Assembly: GCA_950295325.1 (NCBI GenBank)
Contig: OX485807.1
Location: 9,325,001 to 9,389,000 of the forward strand
DNA: 64,000 nucleotides
Direction: 5' to 3'
Origin: Polytrichum commune
Taxonomy: Eukaryota > Streptophyta > Polytrichopsida > Polytrichales > Polytrichaceae
Part shown: piece after piece, positions 20,569 to 64,000 of the stretch
Layout: every line of letters starts with the position of its first letter
Numbering within the stretch: position 1 is the stretch's first letter
The notes under the pieces: generated by a model
The model's input: the letters and a program-made list of their open reading frames with translations, nothing else
What the model was told of the DNA's origin: nothing
Database searches by the model: none
Position numbers and translations under genes: made by a program

Positions 20569-23500
20569 TCATGGTGGAGGGACAGGGGTTTGCTTATTAT
20601 TTATTTTTCTTTTGTTTAAGACACATTTGATGGCGTTTTGGTGTATATTTTTCATGAAGGTTTTAATACGGGTTTTCGGGATTTCTAGTTTGATTAGTTG
20701 GTCTATGGAGTGTTCATGTATGGCTCCTCTTACTCCGGCGGTGATGGTAATGAGGGGGTTGGTATGCCAACCATTGTTTTGTATGATATTGATTAGTGGG
20801 TCGTATTTGGTGTGTTTGTGCATGAGGTTTTGTTTAGGGAATATGTCGTGGCAGTATGTGAATTCGATGAATTGAATTGTGTGCTTGGGGGAAGGTGATA
20901 TAGGTGTTTGTGTTTGGTTTGGGGCTCCAATGATGCACAATATGTTTGGTCTTAGTTTGGCATGGCATTGACATGTTCTTTGTGGGCATGTGCATTTAGG
21001 GAGCCATTCTGGGACTGTTTGGTCTGGGGGTTGGTTGATTAGGTTGCCTCCGTTGGTCAAAGTGAAGAACCGGGTGTTTTTATTGGCTTGTAGTGTCTGA
21101 GTGATGAGGTGGATTGCTTTGTTGTGCCTTGCAATTTGTAGTCCCTTTAAGTATGGATGTTTGCATGTTGATATTAAGTGGGGCCACATGTCTATGTCGT
21201 TGTTATGACATAGTGCACAGTTGGGGTTTTGGTACTTAAGGGGCCAGAAGATATTTTTCCTATGGGTTACCCATGTATTGGGCATATCCAAATTTTAGAG
21301 TTTGGGTAACTTGCATATCCAGCACTTTGTCGTCTTTCCATAAGTGGTTAGAGAGATTCTGCTTGATTTGTTTGTTTGATAGCCATTTGTCTACATATGG
21401 GAATTTTCTTTTGGTGGATTCCGTTTCACGGTTTCATGTTCTTTTGTTATGAATGTGTGGAGGTTGCGGATGGCTCCATCATGTGTGGATGTTGGGCAGT
21501 TTGCTAGCCAATAGGGGGCAGGGTGGGCTATGTGTATATGCGGCATATTGTTTGGTTTTTCTTTTAGTGTCCCTTCATTGGCTAGTGTGTTCGCTATTTC
21601 ATTTCCACTAATGCCCGTGTGTGCTCGCACTTTGTGTATGTGGATCATATGTGGGGTCCAGTGTATTTGATGTACGATGGCTGCGATGAATAATTTATCT
21701 GGGTGATGGTGTTGGGATGTTGGGTGTTGTATGTTTTTGTTGATTAAGTATATGTTGTTAAGGTTGTTTGTAAATATGTGTGTATCTCATTGGGTGGTTT
21801 GTATGGTTTAGATAGCAATGAGTATTGCATTGAGCTCTGCTCTTAGGATATTTTAGTATCCATGTAATCTTTATGATATTTGGGTGTTGTTGTTGGGGTT
21901 GTATACCCCGGAGCCTGCAGTATTGTCCTCTATTAGTCCTTTGGGTTTTTGGAGGGTGGGATAAACGACCCATCCGTGTATATGCACTGTTGTGGATGGT
22001 ATTTAAGGGGGTGGGTATGGTTGTATGTGGTGGGTAGAGGTCTTCTAATAATGTTGTTGGGAGGGGGATGTTTCTTTTGGGGGAGTTTTCCCATGCCTTG
22101 GGGAATTTAATGTTGTAGTGTGTAGGGGGTGGGGTGGGTTTGATGGGATAGGTGTCTATATGTGTGTTCGTTACTCTTTTTAGGACTCTTTGTAATTCGT
22201 GTGGGGTTTGTAAGTTCGTTGTTGGGTTTATTTGGTTGTGTATGTATATGATGAATGTGAGTGATGATTTTGTGTATTGGTAGTATTTTGGCCACTTCGG
22301 CGTGGGGTTGTAATGTATAATATGTGGTAGGATGGTTGCTATTTTGTGTATGTCTACATTTGTGGTGAGTGAAAGTTTTTGTGGTGTCCAGTCGGTGTGA
22401 TTGATTACTAGTATGGTGTTTGTTTGTGCATCTTCTTTGGCGCCCATTCTAGCCCAATGGATGGCTTCTAGGGTCATATTGTGGTCCGTGGGGAATGCTA
22501 GGCCTATTCCATTCCATCTGGAGGATTGTACGTGTCCTAGAGATCCAAATAGTGTGTCTCGGGTATGTGGCAAGTTATATTGTGTAAGTTGGATGGGGCA
22601 TGTAAAGGGGGGGGGGATGAATAGTACGAGTGTATAATTTAAAGGAATTTATTAATATTTTGATAATTTCCGGGTGTAGTGTGTGGCGTTGGTTGTTTGG
22701 TTGTATGTATTTTGGTTTTTTCTTGGGGAGTATGGTTATGTATCTTTGTATGAGCCATAATATTTCGGTCTCAAGACTTGTGGGGGTGGTTATAGGAAGT
22801 TGTTGAGGTGCAGGGGGTTGTTGTGGGAGAAACGTTTCCATAACCATTGTAATCTTTCCGTAGTGATGGTGGTTATGTACTTTCCGTTTTGATCATATAT
22901 GTTGGATTCTGAGGCTTGTATTTGTATGGTTGGTTTGTTGGTAAGAATGTCTTTGTCCGGGTTTGCATTCTTGCGTGTAGGTCTTGAGATTGGTAATGTT
23001 GAGAGGGGGGTGTATGTATTTATTGTCTTTTGTTTGGGTGTAGTTGAGGTAGTTGGCATATGCTTGAGTGGCTTTTTGTTTCCTTGTTACGTTTTGGTAT
23101 TGTGTTATGAGTAGTAGGTCGTGGTCTAGTAGGTAGTTGTCCGGGTGTAGGAGGTCTTCTTATGTGCACCATTGGTGTGTGTTCCTTTGTGTGGTTTGCC
23201 ATTGGCATAGGTATATTGTTTTGATGGCTTGTGCACCCCATTTGTCTTTTCTAGTAGTGGATTTTTCATTGATTATTGTGTGGATTGCTCGCCCTAGGGT
23301 GGGTTGTGGGTCAACGACGCTATCTTGTGAGCGGTGAGCAGTGAGCGGCGAGCGGTGAGCAGAAAATTTGAAAATTAAAAAAAAAATTGATTTAAAAAAA
23401 AAATCAGAATATTTGACTTAATTCTTACACCGAGTAGGACTCTTCATATAGTTTCTTTACAAATATGACTAAAAGTAGATGGTACGTTTAACTGTGGATG

Positions 23501-57414: not shown

Positions 57415-58872
57415 ATGGCACATTCATCGAACAGGCTTGCACATTCTCACATTACTCTTGCAACTCATTTTACTCATCAAGTTGATACATATCACCCTTT
57501 TACATATGTATGCCATAACACTACCTTTAGCATCAAATCTCCTACACTAACCATTTTTTACAGAGATCTGATCCCCTGTGCAAAAGAAATGCTAACACTA
57601 GGTACGAAAGACCCAAAAGCGAAGACTGAGCTGCACCGGAGATCGCAAACCAACCTGCACCAACCACCAAACAAAACAGGGGATCAACATCAAAGAACCT
57701 CCGCACATCAACGAATCCGGCAAGATCAGGTAAGCTTCTCTAAAACCCTCCTAACCCACAAAGCCCAGAACCCAACACAGGAAGAGGAAACCAAGATCAG
57801 CGGCGAGCTGGACACCCGCAACACCAACCCAGCCCTGACGAATGACGGAGAGAAGAAGAACCAGAAAAGCAAGAATGCAACAGGAAAAACGGCGACCCAC
57901 AACACCGGCCCCCGCCAAAAGATGATTGCGATAACAACCCCGACACCTGCAGGAACCCCGACCCTCAAACAACAGGTACACACCAGCAAAGTGCCGCCAA
58001 CCTACCAAACCACAAGCCCGGAAAGCAGCGCCGAAGGGAATCTACACTCCGAAGGCCGAAGCACTCACAGAACCACCTGCAACCAACAAAAGTCCACCAC
58101 CCCGTTGCCCCCAGAAGAAGAGATACACCAGGAGCAACATACACCGAGGATGCGGCCAAAACGATGTCAACACCACAAAGCAAGACGGATCCAGACAACC
58201 GAAGTGCAGACTGCCCCAACGAACCCATCACCAAACCAAGAACGACCAGCAAAGAAAACGAAAGCCAAGCCAACAGAAAGAAGGCCGAATGTGCACACTC
58301 AAGGAGTAGGAAGAAATAACAAAAAATTAATAGAAAAACCACTGTCACCCACCAAAACAAGAAACCCTAACAGAGATTGCAATAGCAGTACTGAGACAAG
58401 GATGTTTAAAAGCCTTAGCAACAGAAAACATCGACCAAAAAATGCACCAACCTGCCAATATAAAGAGAAAGAGAAACTGTCATCTCTCAATCATACCTAC
58501 TTACCAACATGTACTCACTCTCTCCCTCTGATTAGAGCAAATCTCCCTCCCCCTCTAGCCATTAGCATACCTCTCCACCCCCTATACACACAAGTAGAAG
58601 CAGCCTACATCACCTGTAGAAGTAGTGCAGCAGCACCCCGGGATCAGCACCAACAAGCCCGGCGAACAAACCCAGAGCCGAAGACCGAAACGCACTGGAA
58701 CAGCAAGGAGCGGAGGAGTAGACTCAAGCAGACAGAGGGAATCGGCAGCCGAGAGCAGACCTCGCGGAGGAGCAGACTCAAGCAGACAAAGGGAATCGAC
58801 AGCCAAGAGCAGACCTCGCGGAGGAACAGACTCAAGCAGACAAAGGAAATCGGCAGCCAAGAGCAGACCTAG
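57415..58872 (+). CDS. Possible leader ORF of LINE B, low-complexity 485 aa
   Basis: Runs from ATG 57415 and stops inside the tandem-monomer block. The product is rich in Thr, Lys, Gln, Pro and Asn with no recognisable domain, and its C-terminus consists of repeats such as RRSRLKQTKGI. The openness may result only from biased composition, and other frames of the monomer block are open too. Not a confident gene. Confidence 0.2.
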   Translation: MAHSSNRLAHSHITLATHFTHQVDTYHPFTYVCHNTTFSIKSPTLTIFYRDLIPCAKEMLTLGTKDPKAKTELHRRSQTNLHQPPNKTGDQHQRTSAHQRIRQDQVSFSKTLLTHKAQNPTQEEETKISGELDTRNTNPALTNDGEKKNQKSKNATGKTATHNTGPRQKMIAITTPTPAGTPTLKQQVHTSKVPPTYQTTSPESSAEGNLHSEGRSTHRTTCNQQKSTTPLPPEEEIHQEQHTPRMRPKRCQHHKARRIQTTEVQTAPTNPSPNQERPAKKTKAKPTERRPNVHTQGVGRNNKKLIEKPLSPTKTRNPNRDCNSSTETRMFKSLSNRKHRPKNAPTCQYKEKEKLSSLNHTYLPTCTHSLPLIRANLPPPLAISIPLHPLYTQVEAAYITCRSSAAAPRDQHQQARRTNPEPKTETHWNSKERRSRLKQTEGIGSREQTSRRSRLKQTKGIDSQEQTSRRNRLKQTKEIGSQEQT

Positions 58873-59280
58873 CGGAGGAGCAGACTCAAGCAGACAGAGG
58901 GAATCGGCAGCCGAGAGCAGACCTCGCGGAGGAGCAGACTCAAGCAGACAGAGGGAATCGGCAGCCGAGAGCAGACCTCGCGGAGGAGCAGACCCAAGCA
59001 GACAGAGAGAATCGGCAGCCGAGAGCAGACCTAGCGGAGGAGCAGACTCAAGCAGACAGAGAGAACCGGCAGCCGAGAGCAGAACTCGCGGAGGAGCAGA
59101 CTCAAGCAGACAGAGGAAATCGGCAGCCGAGAGTAGACCTCGCGGAGGAGCAAACTCAAGCAGACAAAGGGAAACGACAGCCGATAGCAGACCTCGTGGA
59201 GGAGCATACTCAAGCAGACAGAGGGAAACGGCAGCCGAGAGCAGACCTCGCGGAGGAGCAGACTCAAGCAGACAGAGGGC
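58700..59280 (+). repeat. 54-bp tandem monomers in the LINE B 5' region, about eleven copies
   Basis: GAGCAGAC marks successive units at 58753, 58807, 58861, 58915, 58969, 59023 and onward, exactly 54 apart. The unit includes CTCGCGGAGGAGCAGACTCA and AGCAGACAGAGGGAATCGGC. Because 54 is divisible by three, each frame repeats as 18 residues; one reads SRPRGGADSSRQRESAAE. Confidence 0.95.
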
Positions 59281-59466
59281 AACGGCAGCCGAGAGCAGCC
59301 GACAGCAGAGGAGACTGCCGCAAAGCAACATCAAAGGACAGCAACGGCAGCCGAGAGCAGCCGACAGCAGAGGAGACTGCCGCAAAGCAACATCAAAGGA
59401 CAGCAACGGCAGCCGAGAGCAGCCGACAGCAGAGGAGACTGCCGCAAAGCAACATCAAAGGACAGC
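59281..59466 (+). repeat. 62-bp tandem monomers, three copies
   Basis: AACGGCAGCCGAGAGCAGCC starts at 59281, 59343 and 59405, and each unit runs through GACTGCCGCAAAGCAACATC to AAAGGACAGC. It directly follows the 54-bp array and shares the GCAGCCGAGAGCAG core with it, so it probably derives from it. The 62-bp period shifts frame every unit. Confidence 0.95.
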
Positions 59467-60202
59467 AACGCCGAGGGGAGCCCGGCAAGCTACTACCCGA
59501 GGCGCACACGTGGAGCTCCACCAAACGGAACTGCCCCCGTAAATCATCTCAACGGCCTGCACCAAAAATACCAGGGAACTGGTCCGCCACGTTCAACCAA
59601 TTCGAAACCCAGCAGACCATACCAGGTTCACCACAAAAAACTCTTGGATCAATATGTACTTAGCAAAATGGTGTAAACTACATAGAAATCCTAGTATCTG
59701 CCGTAAAACTCTCTCTAGCACAAATATGCAACACATATGGGTGCTTATTCTGCAAGCATGCATCCATGTCCCCCTAAACAAATTGAATAGGGGGTATGCC
59801 CAAAATCTCTCACACTCTATTAGGAATAATAGAGTCAAAACGAATGAGTTGTGTGTATGTACCATGCATAAAAACGCTTGCTACTATAGTGTCAAAAAAA
59901 TGAAGAGCTAGGCAACTACTTAGCATACATGTCCATGATACCTCTCCTAAAAAAATGCTAGGATATTCACCACATGCATCTATTATGTTCTCTCACAAAA
60001 CAAATGTCACAAACAATGCTCCTATGAACATAAAAATTGGCATAAAAATCACTACATCACTAGGAACATCTCCTTCTCAATGGTCATGCTTCACTCGGCC
60101 CCACAAATTAAGTTGTGGGGAGAAGAAGACCATGAGATTACTAGGAGAAACTCTATACCACAAAAAACCAATAGAAACTTAACACAAAGTTGTTTTTTCA
60201 GA

Positions 60203-61825
60203 ATGTCTCAACGGACCACAAACTCAAGCTCTTCCCAAAGATACAAAGAGAAACTCCTAGCCCTAGAAAATAACCCCGATGTAGAAATGTTTGTAACTCA
60301 AAAACGCTCCTCTTCCTCTCAAATCACTGCAAATCAAAAGAAGGCTAAGGGCAAACCAAACTCCGGTTTGAAACGCCCTCCCTTTTGGCTTGGGTTCCAA
60401 GCAATGAATTGGACAAATAGAGGAAAAGGACTCCCCATGGATAGCCATGCCCTGGTAGCCACTCTAGTGAAAAATGGAATGAGAGAAAAAGAAGCTAGAG
60501 AATGTCAATCCGTTGTTTCTTCCTTCCCCTTTGTCATCCAAGAGGAATGGCCAAACTCTAGAGAGGACGGTAAGGAGGGCCAACATTTTAACCTCACACA
60601 AATCCCATCGGATGTGGAGGTCGACAAGTTTGGCTTTTCATTTGACTACCAAATTGCAATTTTCTTTGAAATGGGAGAAAACGATTGGGAAAAAGATACG
60701 GTCATGACATTAGTAGAGTCAAGGCTCAAAGAGATGAACATTGAGCTTGGGGATACAATAGGGGAACCCATTGCACTAATGTGTTACCACAAATCCACAA
60801 AGTGGAGTGGGGTAATCAAACTACACTTGAAAACCCCCGAGATTGATGGGGTGGAGCTCCTGCAAGGAATCCGCCCATTTATTCTCAAACTAGATGATGA
60901 GAAACTCAAGAGAGGGAAAATATGCAAAACATATGAATCCCTAGCCTTGAATAACCTCTTGTCGGTCAAAATTACAAGTGAAGGGCTAGAATCAAAGGAA
61001 TGGTATGAAATGTTTGTAAAAATTGTAGAAGAGAGCTTCCAAAGGGGTACGGAATACGAAATAACAAACATTCAAAAGAAAAAAGAAAACCTCTTTGCAT
61101 GGGTAGTAGCCTCTTCACCGGAACAAGCCCAACGGATGAAGGACCATCAAATCACCTACAACAACGAAATATTGGACGGGAAACTAGCCGACCAATCACT
61201 CGCATCCAAGGATGACATCGCAAGGAAGAACGCCCTCATCCTCATCGCCAAAAATCTCAACAAAGCAAAAAGCGTGGAGGAAATCGAGAAGAGTATCGAA
61301 GCATACATGGGACCTAAGAACGCGGTCAACTTCTTCTTCAAACGCGATGACAAAAATGGTAAACATCTAGGATCATGCAACATCCAATGCCTAAATGCAA
61401 TGGTATACAAGAAATTTGGCAAGAAAACCGCAAAACTACTTGGCAAGCATGTAGAGTTTACCCCCCACCCTAGGAGCCTTGATGGAGCCAATGCACCAAG
61501 TGCAATGGAACTCACTAGACTAGGGTTTAGTGATGTGAACACTGCCCTTGCAAATACCATTGAAACACTTGAAAACATTCCCGCAAAAGAAAACCTACAC
61601 AAAGATCTCATGAAAGAAATAACCGGAATAAGAGAGGAAATTACCACCATGAAGGATGAGCTACGAAGTGAGCAACAACAAATTGCGGAAAAAGTCGTGG
61701 AAAAATCAACATCAACCCTCCATACACAAATGACACTCCTAAAAAGACAACTTGCCACAACCATGCAAGCACTAGAAATGGCTAGTTCCTCGGCCATTGA
61801 AGGCAACACGGATACGACAAACTAG
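60203..61825 (+). CDS. LINE B ORF1 protein: N-terminal conserved domain, RRM-like domain, coiled coil
   Basis: 540 aa from ATG 60203 to TAG 61823-61825. The frame also has an ATG at 60080, but MSQRTTNSSSSQ at 60203 gives a more typical disordered start. A conserved region begins PPFWLGFQAMNW (~residue 55), with FNLTQIP and WSGVIKLHL shared with LINE A. An RRM-like fold follows: RNP2-like NALILIAKNL and RNP1-like KHLGSCNIQCLN (residues ~344-392). The C-terminal ~90 residues (KENLHKDLMKEITGIREE onward) form a strong coiled-coil candidate. Such ORF1 proteins trimerise, bind element RNA and act as chaperones in retrotransposition. The next ORF starts in the -1 frame over its last 25 bases. No stops or frameshifts, so it is potentially functional. 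Confidence 0.8.
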   Translation: MSQRTTNSSSSQRYKEKLLALENNPDVEMFVTQKRSSSSQITANQKKAKGKPNSGLKRPPFWLGFQAMNWTNRGKGLPMDSHALVATLVKNGMREKEARECQSVVSSFPFVIQEEWPNSREDGKEGQHFNLTQIPSDVEVDKFGFSFDYQIAIFFEMGENDWEKDTVMTLVESRLKEMNIELGDTIGEPIALMCYHKSTKWSGVIKLHLKTPEIDGVELLQGIRPFILKLDDEKLKRGKICKTYESLALNNLLSVKITSEGLESKEWYEMFVKIVEESFQRGTEYEITNIQKKKENLFAWVVASSPEQAQRMKDHQITYNNEILDGKLADQSLASKDDIARKNALILIAKNLNKAKSVEEIEKSIEAYMGPKNAVNFFFKRDDKNGKHLGSCNIQCLNAMVYKKFGKKTAKLLGKHVEFTPHPRSLDGANAPSAMELTRLGFSDVNTALANTIETLENIPAKENLHKDLMKEITGIREEITTMKDELRSEQQQIAEKVVEKSTSTLHTQMTLLKRQLATTMQALEMASSSAIEGNTDTTN

Positions 61826-64000
61826 CTTGGTCAAACAACGCTACGGTAATCAATAAATCATACCTACTAGTATCTATAGATACCTTAATACACACTAAAA
61901 ACTATAAAAGAAAAACAAATCCTCAAACTTCAATAAAAAGTGTCAAACAACACTATAAAACAAAATCCCAAATACTAAACAAAAACAAAACTCAACTAAA
62001 ACGGGCTCGGCCTACCGGCCTCGCCACAAAAAAGAAAGAAGAAGAACAACAAAATAAACCACCCACCCAAACTACTAAAACCCAACAAAAACAAAATAAT
62101 AATAATAAAAACACACCAACACAAAAAACATACAAAGTAACCAAACAACCTAAAAACATAACAAACATCAAAACCAATGTAACCCCCACTCCAAGTACCT
62201 CTCATAACAACAACAACATCAAAATCACCAATAAACCAATACGATTACAAACTAAATACAAACTCATCCACTCACACAAAGATGAGATACTAACCCATCT
62301 ACATACCAAACCAATTTGGCCACATAACATAATGGCAATAGAAAACACACATCTACTAATAGCCACATACAATATAATACGCTCCAAATCCAAAATAGCA
62401 ATAAAACCACTTACCACTAAGAAGGATGTAAAAATGAACTACAAAACTAATATCCAAAAACTAAAAAAGGACACTCCCCTATCAAAACAAAATCAACCTA
62501 CCAACCTTGCCAAAAAAATAATAATAAGAAGAGAAAATAGAACAAAAAAGAAGAATAAAACAAAAACTCACAAACCCAACGACATTCTAAAAAGTCATAA
62601 AAGAAACAACACAAAAGAAACACAACAAACACACAAAATAAATAAACAACCCAAACACACAACCAAAACAAATGAAACCCCCACTATGGGCATCCCTCAT
62701 AACAACAAAAATATCAAAACTAACAAAACAAACAAAAACAACACTACAAAAAATTACCAACATCAAATAGATATCACCAAAACTAAAACTAAAATACCTC
62801 GGCATACCAACCTCGACCAAAAAGTATACGCAACCACACCACACTACAAAGATAATAAAAACAAAATAATATACACACCATCTAAAACCCATACAAAAAA
62901 TACCCGAAAACACAATAACCCTCAACACCAAAGACACACTACTCACAAATCCCCCAAATCACACAAAATAACCAACAAACCCAAACACCTTACTAACAAA
63001 GACAACATCACCAACACATCAAACTACTTAAATAACCACACCTCGAAACACCTGCTACTCCTCTGTGGAGACATCGAAACTAATCCAGGACCAATGCCAA
63101 ACATACTTAAAATGCACCCACCATCACACAAAAATAGGAATAAAATGTATTTTATACCTTGCACAATAAAACTGCACCCAGAGTACCAACACTTAGCAAA
63201 ACAATTTGCTGCATGTCTAAAAACAACACACCCAAACCACACTGCCACATCTATAGAACACCCACACCTCTCAAGATACATACAAGAAAACCAACATCAC
63301 CCACCCCAACGCATACTATATGCACTCATTACTACAATAAGCCCATTACTAGAAACATGTGACCATCAACTAATGCACATACCCAACCCAGACTGGACAA
63401 CAACACTCCTTGATAAAATAGCACATCTCCAAAATCCCCCAGAAAGACACATCCTAAAACCACACCCATACACAGAATTTATAAACAACAACCCAAACCT
63501 AATCAACCCCCCCAATACCATTCACAAACAACTATATGATTTTATAAAACAAAACAATAATTCCCCAAACCTTCAACTACTAACAAACAAATTCCCATTC
63601 CTACCTGAAAATTTACTAATAGAATCTCTCAAATGCAACGAACTCATAATAGAATATTCACATCCACCCCCACTACCCAACATAACATTACCACAAAGCC
63701 AAGATACACAAACAACTAATCACGACACACACATCATCACATGGAACGCCTCATCTCTAAACACAGTCCTACCAAACATATACAACTTAATCACAAACAC
63801 CACAACAAGCCCAACAATCATCACAATACAAGAAACCAAACTAACCGCAACAAAATCAACAAAATATATACAAAACCTATTCCCAAAATACAAACTAATT
63901 TTTAATAACACACATGCGCTAACACGTTGCATACAACAAAGAATGCCGTATACCCCGGCAAGAGGAGGACTCCTCACTCTAATAAATAACAAATATGCAT
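61801..64000 (+). CDS. LINE B ORF2, N-terminal part: basic leader, 2A-like motif, linker domain, start of APE endonuclease
   Basis: Stop-free from 61801 to the window end (733 codons) in the frame of 63040. The first in-frame ATG is 62332, later ones include 62434 and 62686, so the start is undetermined. About 410 codons of Lys/Asn/Thr/Gln-rich sequence lead to HLLLLCGDIETNPGP (63049-63093). A globular region of ~210 aa follows, for example TIKLHPEYQHLAKQFAA and YALITTISPLLETCDHQLM. From ~63739 come APE-type endonuclease motifs: IITWNASS (motif I), IITIQETKL (63820-63846, with the catalytic Glu) and RGGLLTLINN near the edge. The enzyme would nick target DNA for target-primed reverse transcription. 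RT and the rest lie beyond the window. Confidence 0.78.
63067..63093 (+). other. 2A-like ribosome-skipping motif in LINE B ORF2
   Basis: Encodes GDIETNPGP, preceded by a Leu-rich stretch (HLLLLC), matching the D(V/I)ExNPG|P consensus in full. 2A peptides cause the ribosome to skip the G-P bond, releasing the upstream product. They have been described in other non-LTR retrotransposons. Here it would separate the basic leader from the endonuclease/RT polyprotein. Confidence 0.85.

Follow-up and report, generated by a model that had tools for sequence, protein, structure and literature searches.

Does a short peptide motif in the ORF2 frame of a LINE from Polytrichum commune act as a 2A (StopGo) site that would split a retrotransposon polyprotein in a green plant? 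A 2A/StopGo site was reportedly found in the trypanosome L1Tc non-LTR retrotransposon (Heras, 2006), and such sites are also said to occur in non-LTR retrotransposons of sea urchin and multicellular organisms (Odon, 2013). That 2A is known in LINEs of trypanosomes and sea urchin is likewise stated in the accessible portion of a more recent paper (PMC5972666). The LINEs of plants named in the available part of a review are L1 and RTE only (PMC9033089), and no report of 2A in plant LINEs was found in the open-access literature as far as its texts were accessible, an earlier report in subscription journals being possible. 2A has been used as a tool in plant cells, according to the excerpt available (PMC4981915). 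StopGo works in plants when introduced, and the accessible sections of a survey covering almost 10,000 viral sites record no natural use in plant viruses (PMC12846837).

The window, by which we mean the whole stretch of 64,000 nucleotides that was analyzed, contains the motif HLLLLCGDIETNPGP in register with the open frame 61801-63999, which represents ORF2 of an APE-type LINE and continues past the window end to a total of 778 codons (Table 1). A preliminary description of this DNA had announced a complete 2A-like motif at exactly this place, and this proved correct, with all core residues matching. The DIETNPGP of the window copy agrees with the published extended core (D/G/C/N)(V/I)ExNPGP, and its upstream context, LLLLCG, fits, by resemblance only, an 'LLLLSG-like' upstream class in the accessible part of the viral survey (PMC12846837). 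The motif is flanked in frame by coding segments on both sides, namely the open leader and a conserved domain, and the skip would take place between Gly (63088-63090) and Pro (63091-63093). A degenerate DNA pattern for GDIExNPGP, run with up to three mismatches, hit a single place in the window, where it matched without any mismatch; shuffled windows gave a mean of 0.08 places at the same tolerance. In the whole genome searched (408 Mb, 64 contigs), GDIETNPGP yielded 63 and GDIExNPGP 255 exact matches, and neither pattern found a single one when written backwards. Seven contigs of 42-78 Mb account for almost the entire genome. On contig C8 (146,561 bases) PsaA_PsaB was matched twice, and the PsaB encoded there gave its best PDB scores with chains 7ksq_B, 6l35_B and 8htu_B, which come from the moss Physcomitrium. 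The host is thus a green plant and most likely a moss, and a set of seven large chromosomes would suit Polytrichaceae.

Table 1 Features of the LINE with the putative StopGo site. Coordinates are those of the window; where a locus is named, they are those of that locus, L001 being the window copy.
Feature	Position	Strand	Basis
ORF1 frame of the LINE, 624 codons stop to stop	59951-61825	+	open frame
Leader of the ORF2 frame, 416 codons, basic, A/C-rich, fast-evolving, open	61801-63048	+	frame, dN/dS
DNA motif CTCGGCCTACCGGCCTCGCC in the leader	62006-62025	+	16-base core in 41/128 loci
Putative 2A/StopGo motif HLLLLCG-DIETNPG/P	63049-63093	+	translation, DNA pattern, conservation among copies
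Conserved domain after the motif, 214 aa, predicted helical	63091-63732	+	structure prediction, mean pLDDT 69.6
Start of APE-type endonuclease, begins IITWNASS	63733-64000	+	sequence
PCIF1_WW-like domain after RT	L001:8839-9498 (just past window)		PF12237
PCIF1_WW-like domain after RT	L121:9112-9741		PF12237
PCIF1_WW-like domain after RT	L123:2085-2714		PF12237

Downstream of the motif, the 214-aa domain is followed by the APE-type endonuclease, the reverse transcriptase (RT) and a PCIF1_WW-like domain. One long copy also has a recognizable RNase H; in the second long copy the scan ended where that region begins. Pfam recognized Exo_endo_phos_2 and RVT_1 in the ORF2 of the window copy and Exo_endo_phos and RVT_1 in two long copies, Exo_endo_phos lying below the curated cut-off in one of them. 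As ORF2 is predicted to specify an apurinic-type endonuclease and then an RT, we classify the element as an APE-type LINE. In a PDB search, which is distinct from a LINE-clade assignment, the RT scored higher against R2 (E 3.9e-25) than against L1 (E 3.7e-12). The claim that the motif sits at the junction between the leader and the conserved ORF2 domains holds in outline, but the motif does not border on the endonuclease, from which the 214-aa domain separates it. The model obtained for this domain had a pTM of 0.42, and no PDB entry matched its fold at E ≤0.001. The overlap of ORF1 and ORF2 amounts to 25 nt in the window (61801-61825), where no obvious shift site was seen by eye; locus L011 has an overlap of the same length, as does one longer copy out of three, the remaining two having overlaps of 91 and 80 nt. 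No Pfam family exceeded its cut-off in the ORF1 frame. The window copy is broken, its ORF2 being interrupted several times past the window and first within the endonuclease. Counted from stop to stop, ORF2 spans 2919, 2625 and 2924 codons in the three longer copies. A scan for relatives in viral contigs with 236 aa of the RT region returned 14 pattern matches, none of which was confirmed. Upstream of ORF1, at 58710-59470 of the window, tandem repeats were observed (a 54-bp unit repeated 10.9 times and a 62-bp unit repeated 3.1 times), which could be part of the LINE's 5' end.

Related copies were collected by a protein search with a 338-aa query reaching from just upstream of the motif into the endonuclease. 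The motif region was read in all 119 copies scored out of 1081 candidates, and two of them (L042 and L043), which could not be aligned there, were dropped, leaving 117 copies. GDIExNPGP is present in 92, the published extended core in 95 and NPGP in 106 of these, while 25 are not GDIExNPGP and 11 lack NPGP; note that retention may be somewhat overstated, since the query itself contained the motif and only this share of the candidates was scored. Departures were seen at position 11 (two copies), position 12 (one copy), position 14 (Lys in eleven copies, a stop in one), position 16 (His in three), position 17 (Leu in four), position 18 (four) and position 19 (one). The x position is occupied by T, S, P or L. 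Synonymous codons are mixed at seven of the eight fixed motif positions among the 92 GDIExNPGP copies, Glu being GAA in all 92. A Leu-rich run ending in (C/S)G precedes the core, with Leu-Leu at positions 7 and 8 in 96 of the 117 copies. An open frame of at least 1000 aa, taken as a proxy for an intact RT, is found in 29 copies, comprising 21 with GDIExNPGP, five with Lys at position 14, one with Val at position 11 and two without NPGP. Conservation across genomic copies had been proposed as a check in the preliminary description, and decay of NPGP in most relatives with an intact RT, which would have spoken against its claim, was absent as judged by frame length. A young pair of copies, identical over 600 nt, retains GDIEPNPGP.

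Purifying selection increases sharply at the motif. In groups of 12, 28 and 77 copies, dN/dS was 0.55-0.76 for the leader, 0.06-0.13 for the core and 0.12-0.19 downstream. At residues 7 to 15 before the core, values of 0.56 and 0.73 were obtained in two groups and 0.14 in the largest, in which constraint sets in about 15 residues ahead of the core and not precisely at it; this early onset would fall within the would-be active tract. The leader itself is long and basic, as had been claimed, with 22% K+R and 4% D+E. It contains no stop in the ORF2 frame versus 31 and 33 in the other two frames. In the three longer copies the leaders are stop-free over 577, 276 and 575 codons, and dinucleotide shuffles of these three had on average 26, 17 and 27 stops and never fewer than nine. 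Because the three long copies have no stops where shuffling predicts 17-27, we conclude that the leader encodes protein and runs on into the motif. Interruptions of the leader frame occur in many other copies. Fast evolution combined with a frame kept open in the longest copies would be expected of a leader that is translated and then cut off.

The leaders of 30 loci and of the three longer copies (one of which is L025) were also scanned for extra motifs. Six leaders (L006, L007, L008, L024, L027 and L029) carry an additional upstream motif, which is altered in all six and lies in another frame in four, and this suggests past duplication. The DNA motif CTCGGCCTACCGGCCTCGCC is read in two different frames among the longer copies. 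This frame change, together with the recurrence of the 16-base core (Table 1), hints at a function at the nucleic acid level, perhaps as an RNA or DNA element.

Duplication of the motif is seen in intact form in sister lineages. In locus L128, two exact matches lie 801 nt apart and correspond to two intact motifs in a single open frame, each followed by a related domain. A search with the L128 stretch gave 136 matches, including second pieces of one locus and copies of the window's own groups. Nine further regions contained close-set matches; in five of them (L134, L135, L137, L139 and L142) a single open frame holds two motifs, and the other four show one motif each, L135 and L137 resembling close copies. 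Spacing was evaluated for the match places of GDIETNPGP, GDIExNPGP and the variants with Lys or Gln/His at position 14, 249 places among the matches listed. Among these, 35 neighboring pairs of motifs on the same strand are at most 1500 nt apart, and in 29 of the 35 the spacing is a multiple of three (binomial p 2.3e-9, the copies being related). When only distinct spacings among the matches listed are considered, 19 of 25 are in frame, and four of the other six come within 2 nt of an in-frame spacing. We also read 20 tandem loci (L143-L162), most of which had been selected for a spacing divisible by three, so that the coordinate count alone serves as the test. Of their 23 gaps, 21 keep the same frame, and 18 of these 21 are free of stops. 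A GDIQ motif stands ahead of a GDIH motif in 18 of the 20 loci, and L143, L156 and L158 have three motifs each. The tandem arrangement and the series of residues at position 14 extend beyond what had been found in the preliminary description, which had also overlooked the broken state of the window copy.

In viruses, position 14 is nearly always Glu. This one plant genome has 415 exact-match places, 255 with Glu, 143 with Gln or His and 17 with Lys at this position, many with signs of selection, and they occur singly as well as in tandem. The reversed Gln/His-14 pattern gave no match. According to the accessible part of the viral survey, variants with His at position 14 or at position 16 reach activities of about 90% or above when translated in reticulocyte lysate (PMC12846837); two of the three copies with His at position 16 are HPGP and otherwise intact. 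Activities for Gln-14 and Lys-14 are absent from the variant list in the portion of that source at hand (PMC12846837) and were not found in the available text of a further one (PMC3508920). Five near-identical Lys-14 copies differ in 0-1 of 270 nt downstream of the motif and have frames of 1249-2924 aa; two of the five differ more when 600 nt including the leader are compared without gaps. Of the six copies with frames of at least 2000 aa, three belong to the Lys-14 kind. The remaining Lys-14 copies among the 117 appear in the tree as four single tips and one pair. No other observation speaks as strongly as this recent burst against the canonical site being strictly needed: such copies either tolerate Lys or can do without the site. 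Gly at position 10 accompanies a non-Glu residue at position 14 in 49 of 160 cases and Glu in 10 of 255, related copies included, an association that we treat as a lead only.

In our judgment, the motif is probably a genuine StopGo/2A site that would split a LINE polyprotein in a green plant, an assignment that draws on sequence, context and selection. It is real, it is under selection, and it is sited where StopGo would part the leader from the enzymes. Ribosomes would translate the ORF2 frame through the long, loosely constrained leader, release the nascent chain at NPG and restart synthesis at Pro. The separate downstream protein would then consist of the small conserved domain, the endonuclease, the RT and the PCIF1-like domain, possibly with the RNase H seen in one long copy. 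In sister lineages with a repeated motif, three or four products could arise from one frame. The Lys-14 burst and the broken state of the window copy call for the most caution about this reading.

In principle, the conservation of the motif could be explained in other ways. The enzyme protein might start at the Met that directly follows NPGP in 116 of the 117 copies of the window's groups, the motif not being used to split the main product. An open leader and conservation of the motif at the protein level are not required by such a start, however, and most motifs of the sister lineages are followed by L, P, S or another residue. As most of these motifs have no following Met, the downstream protein of the sister lineages cannot generally start there, and we rejected a Met start as the general route and regard this alternative as unlikely. 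It is also quite improbable that the motif is kept for some other purpose, for instance targeting or the folding of the neighboring domain, and triggers no skipping in this plant. The core and this domain are indeed under similar constraint, but conservation has fallen on the residues by which StopGo is defined, the x position varies freely, and both sites of the tandem arrangements carry the motif ahead of otherwise diverged sequence.

A relic, i.e., a site that was active in an ancestor and for which living lineages are beginning to lose the need, would accommodate the Lys-14 burst, whose frames are long and open, and the six leaders in which an upstream motif is altered. Other young copies, among them the pair identical over 600 nt, nevertheless keep GDIEPNPGP, and the low dN/dS of the core also argues against a relic, which we hold to be very improbable. 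A chance match, finally, has nothing in its favor beyond the shortness of the motif and is refuted by the genome-wide control (255 matches against none for the reversed pattern in 408 Mb), leaving it practically no probability.

With a functional StopGo site as the preferred reading, the element can be compared with known systems. It shares with the LINEs of trypanosomes and sea urchin, which are known to us from citing passages, the combination of an APE-type LINE with an in-frame DxExNPGP motif, and differs from them in its green-plant host and perhaps also in the long open leader, the tandem in-frame motifs and the lineages with Gln, His or Lys at position 14. As far as the accessible text on viral StopGo/2A sites with Leu-rich upstream classes goes (PMC12846837), the core octamer and a Leu-rich hexapeptide ending in Gly before the Asp at position 12 are common to both; here, however, the carrier is a cellular retrotransposon and not an RNA virus, and position 14 is often not Glu. 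More than one StopGo site per polyprotein is also found, according to the part available, in picornaviruses with multiple 2A-NPGP sites (PMC11512398), whose genomes are unrelated, whereas the sites described here lie before and within the start of a LINE ORF2. With the plant L1 and RTE elements, as presented in the accessible part of the review (PMC9033089), the element has an endonuclease and an RT in common, and two ORFs as in L1; the 2A motif, the ORF2 frames of 2625-2924 codons in three copies and the PCIF1-like domain set it apart.

If active, these sites would represent a natural use of ribosome skipping in plants. They would also form a series of natural mutants at a core position and enlarge the choice of sequences for expressing several genes together. 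To LINE biology, they would add an example of a polyprotein inside which the 2A unit itself has been multiplied. A wider proposal, which we put forward tentatively and with less than even confidence, is that the members of a plant LINE superfamily employ StopGo at one, two or three sites within ORF2, with a position-14 code widened from Glu to Gln, His and Lys, the Gln site usually preceding the His site. Position 14, perhaps with Gly at position 10, would set the efficiency of skipping and hence the proportions in which leader, free middle product and enzyme are made.

PCIF1_WW is a family of cap m6Am methyltransferases. PF12237 scored above its cut-off in three ORF2 copies (Table 1), and the solved PCIF1 structure 6irv_A was matched at E 0.00025. 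Where RNase H was seen, the PCIF1-like domain sits before it. The NPPF motif, which has a catalytic role in PCIF1, is not kept in the aligned domains, which read HPPN in one case, HPHN in three and FPTD in the window fragment. A model of the domain built from five sequences was poor (mean pLDDT 37.0). No mention of PCIF1 in retroelements was found in open-access titles and the beginnings of abstracts. In the genome, the search with PF12237 scored 150 of 697 candidate matches. Within the window, the ORFs of another LINE fragment, 'LINE A', were noted on the reverse strand at 20569-22648; over 22112-22648, this fragment shares 34% identity with the PCIF1-like domain of L121.
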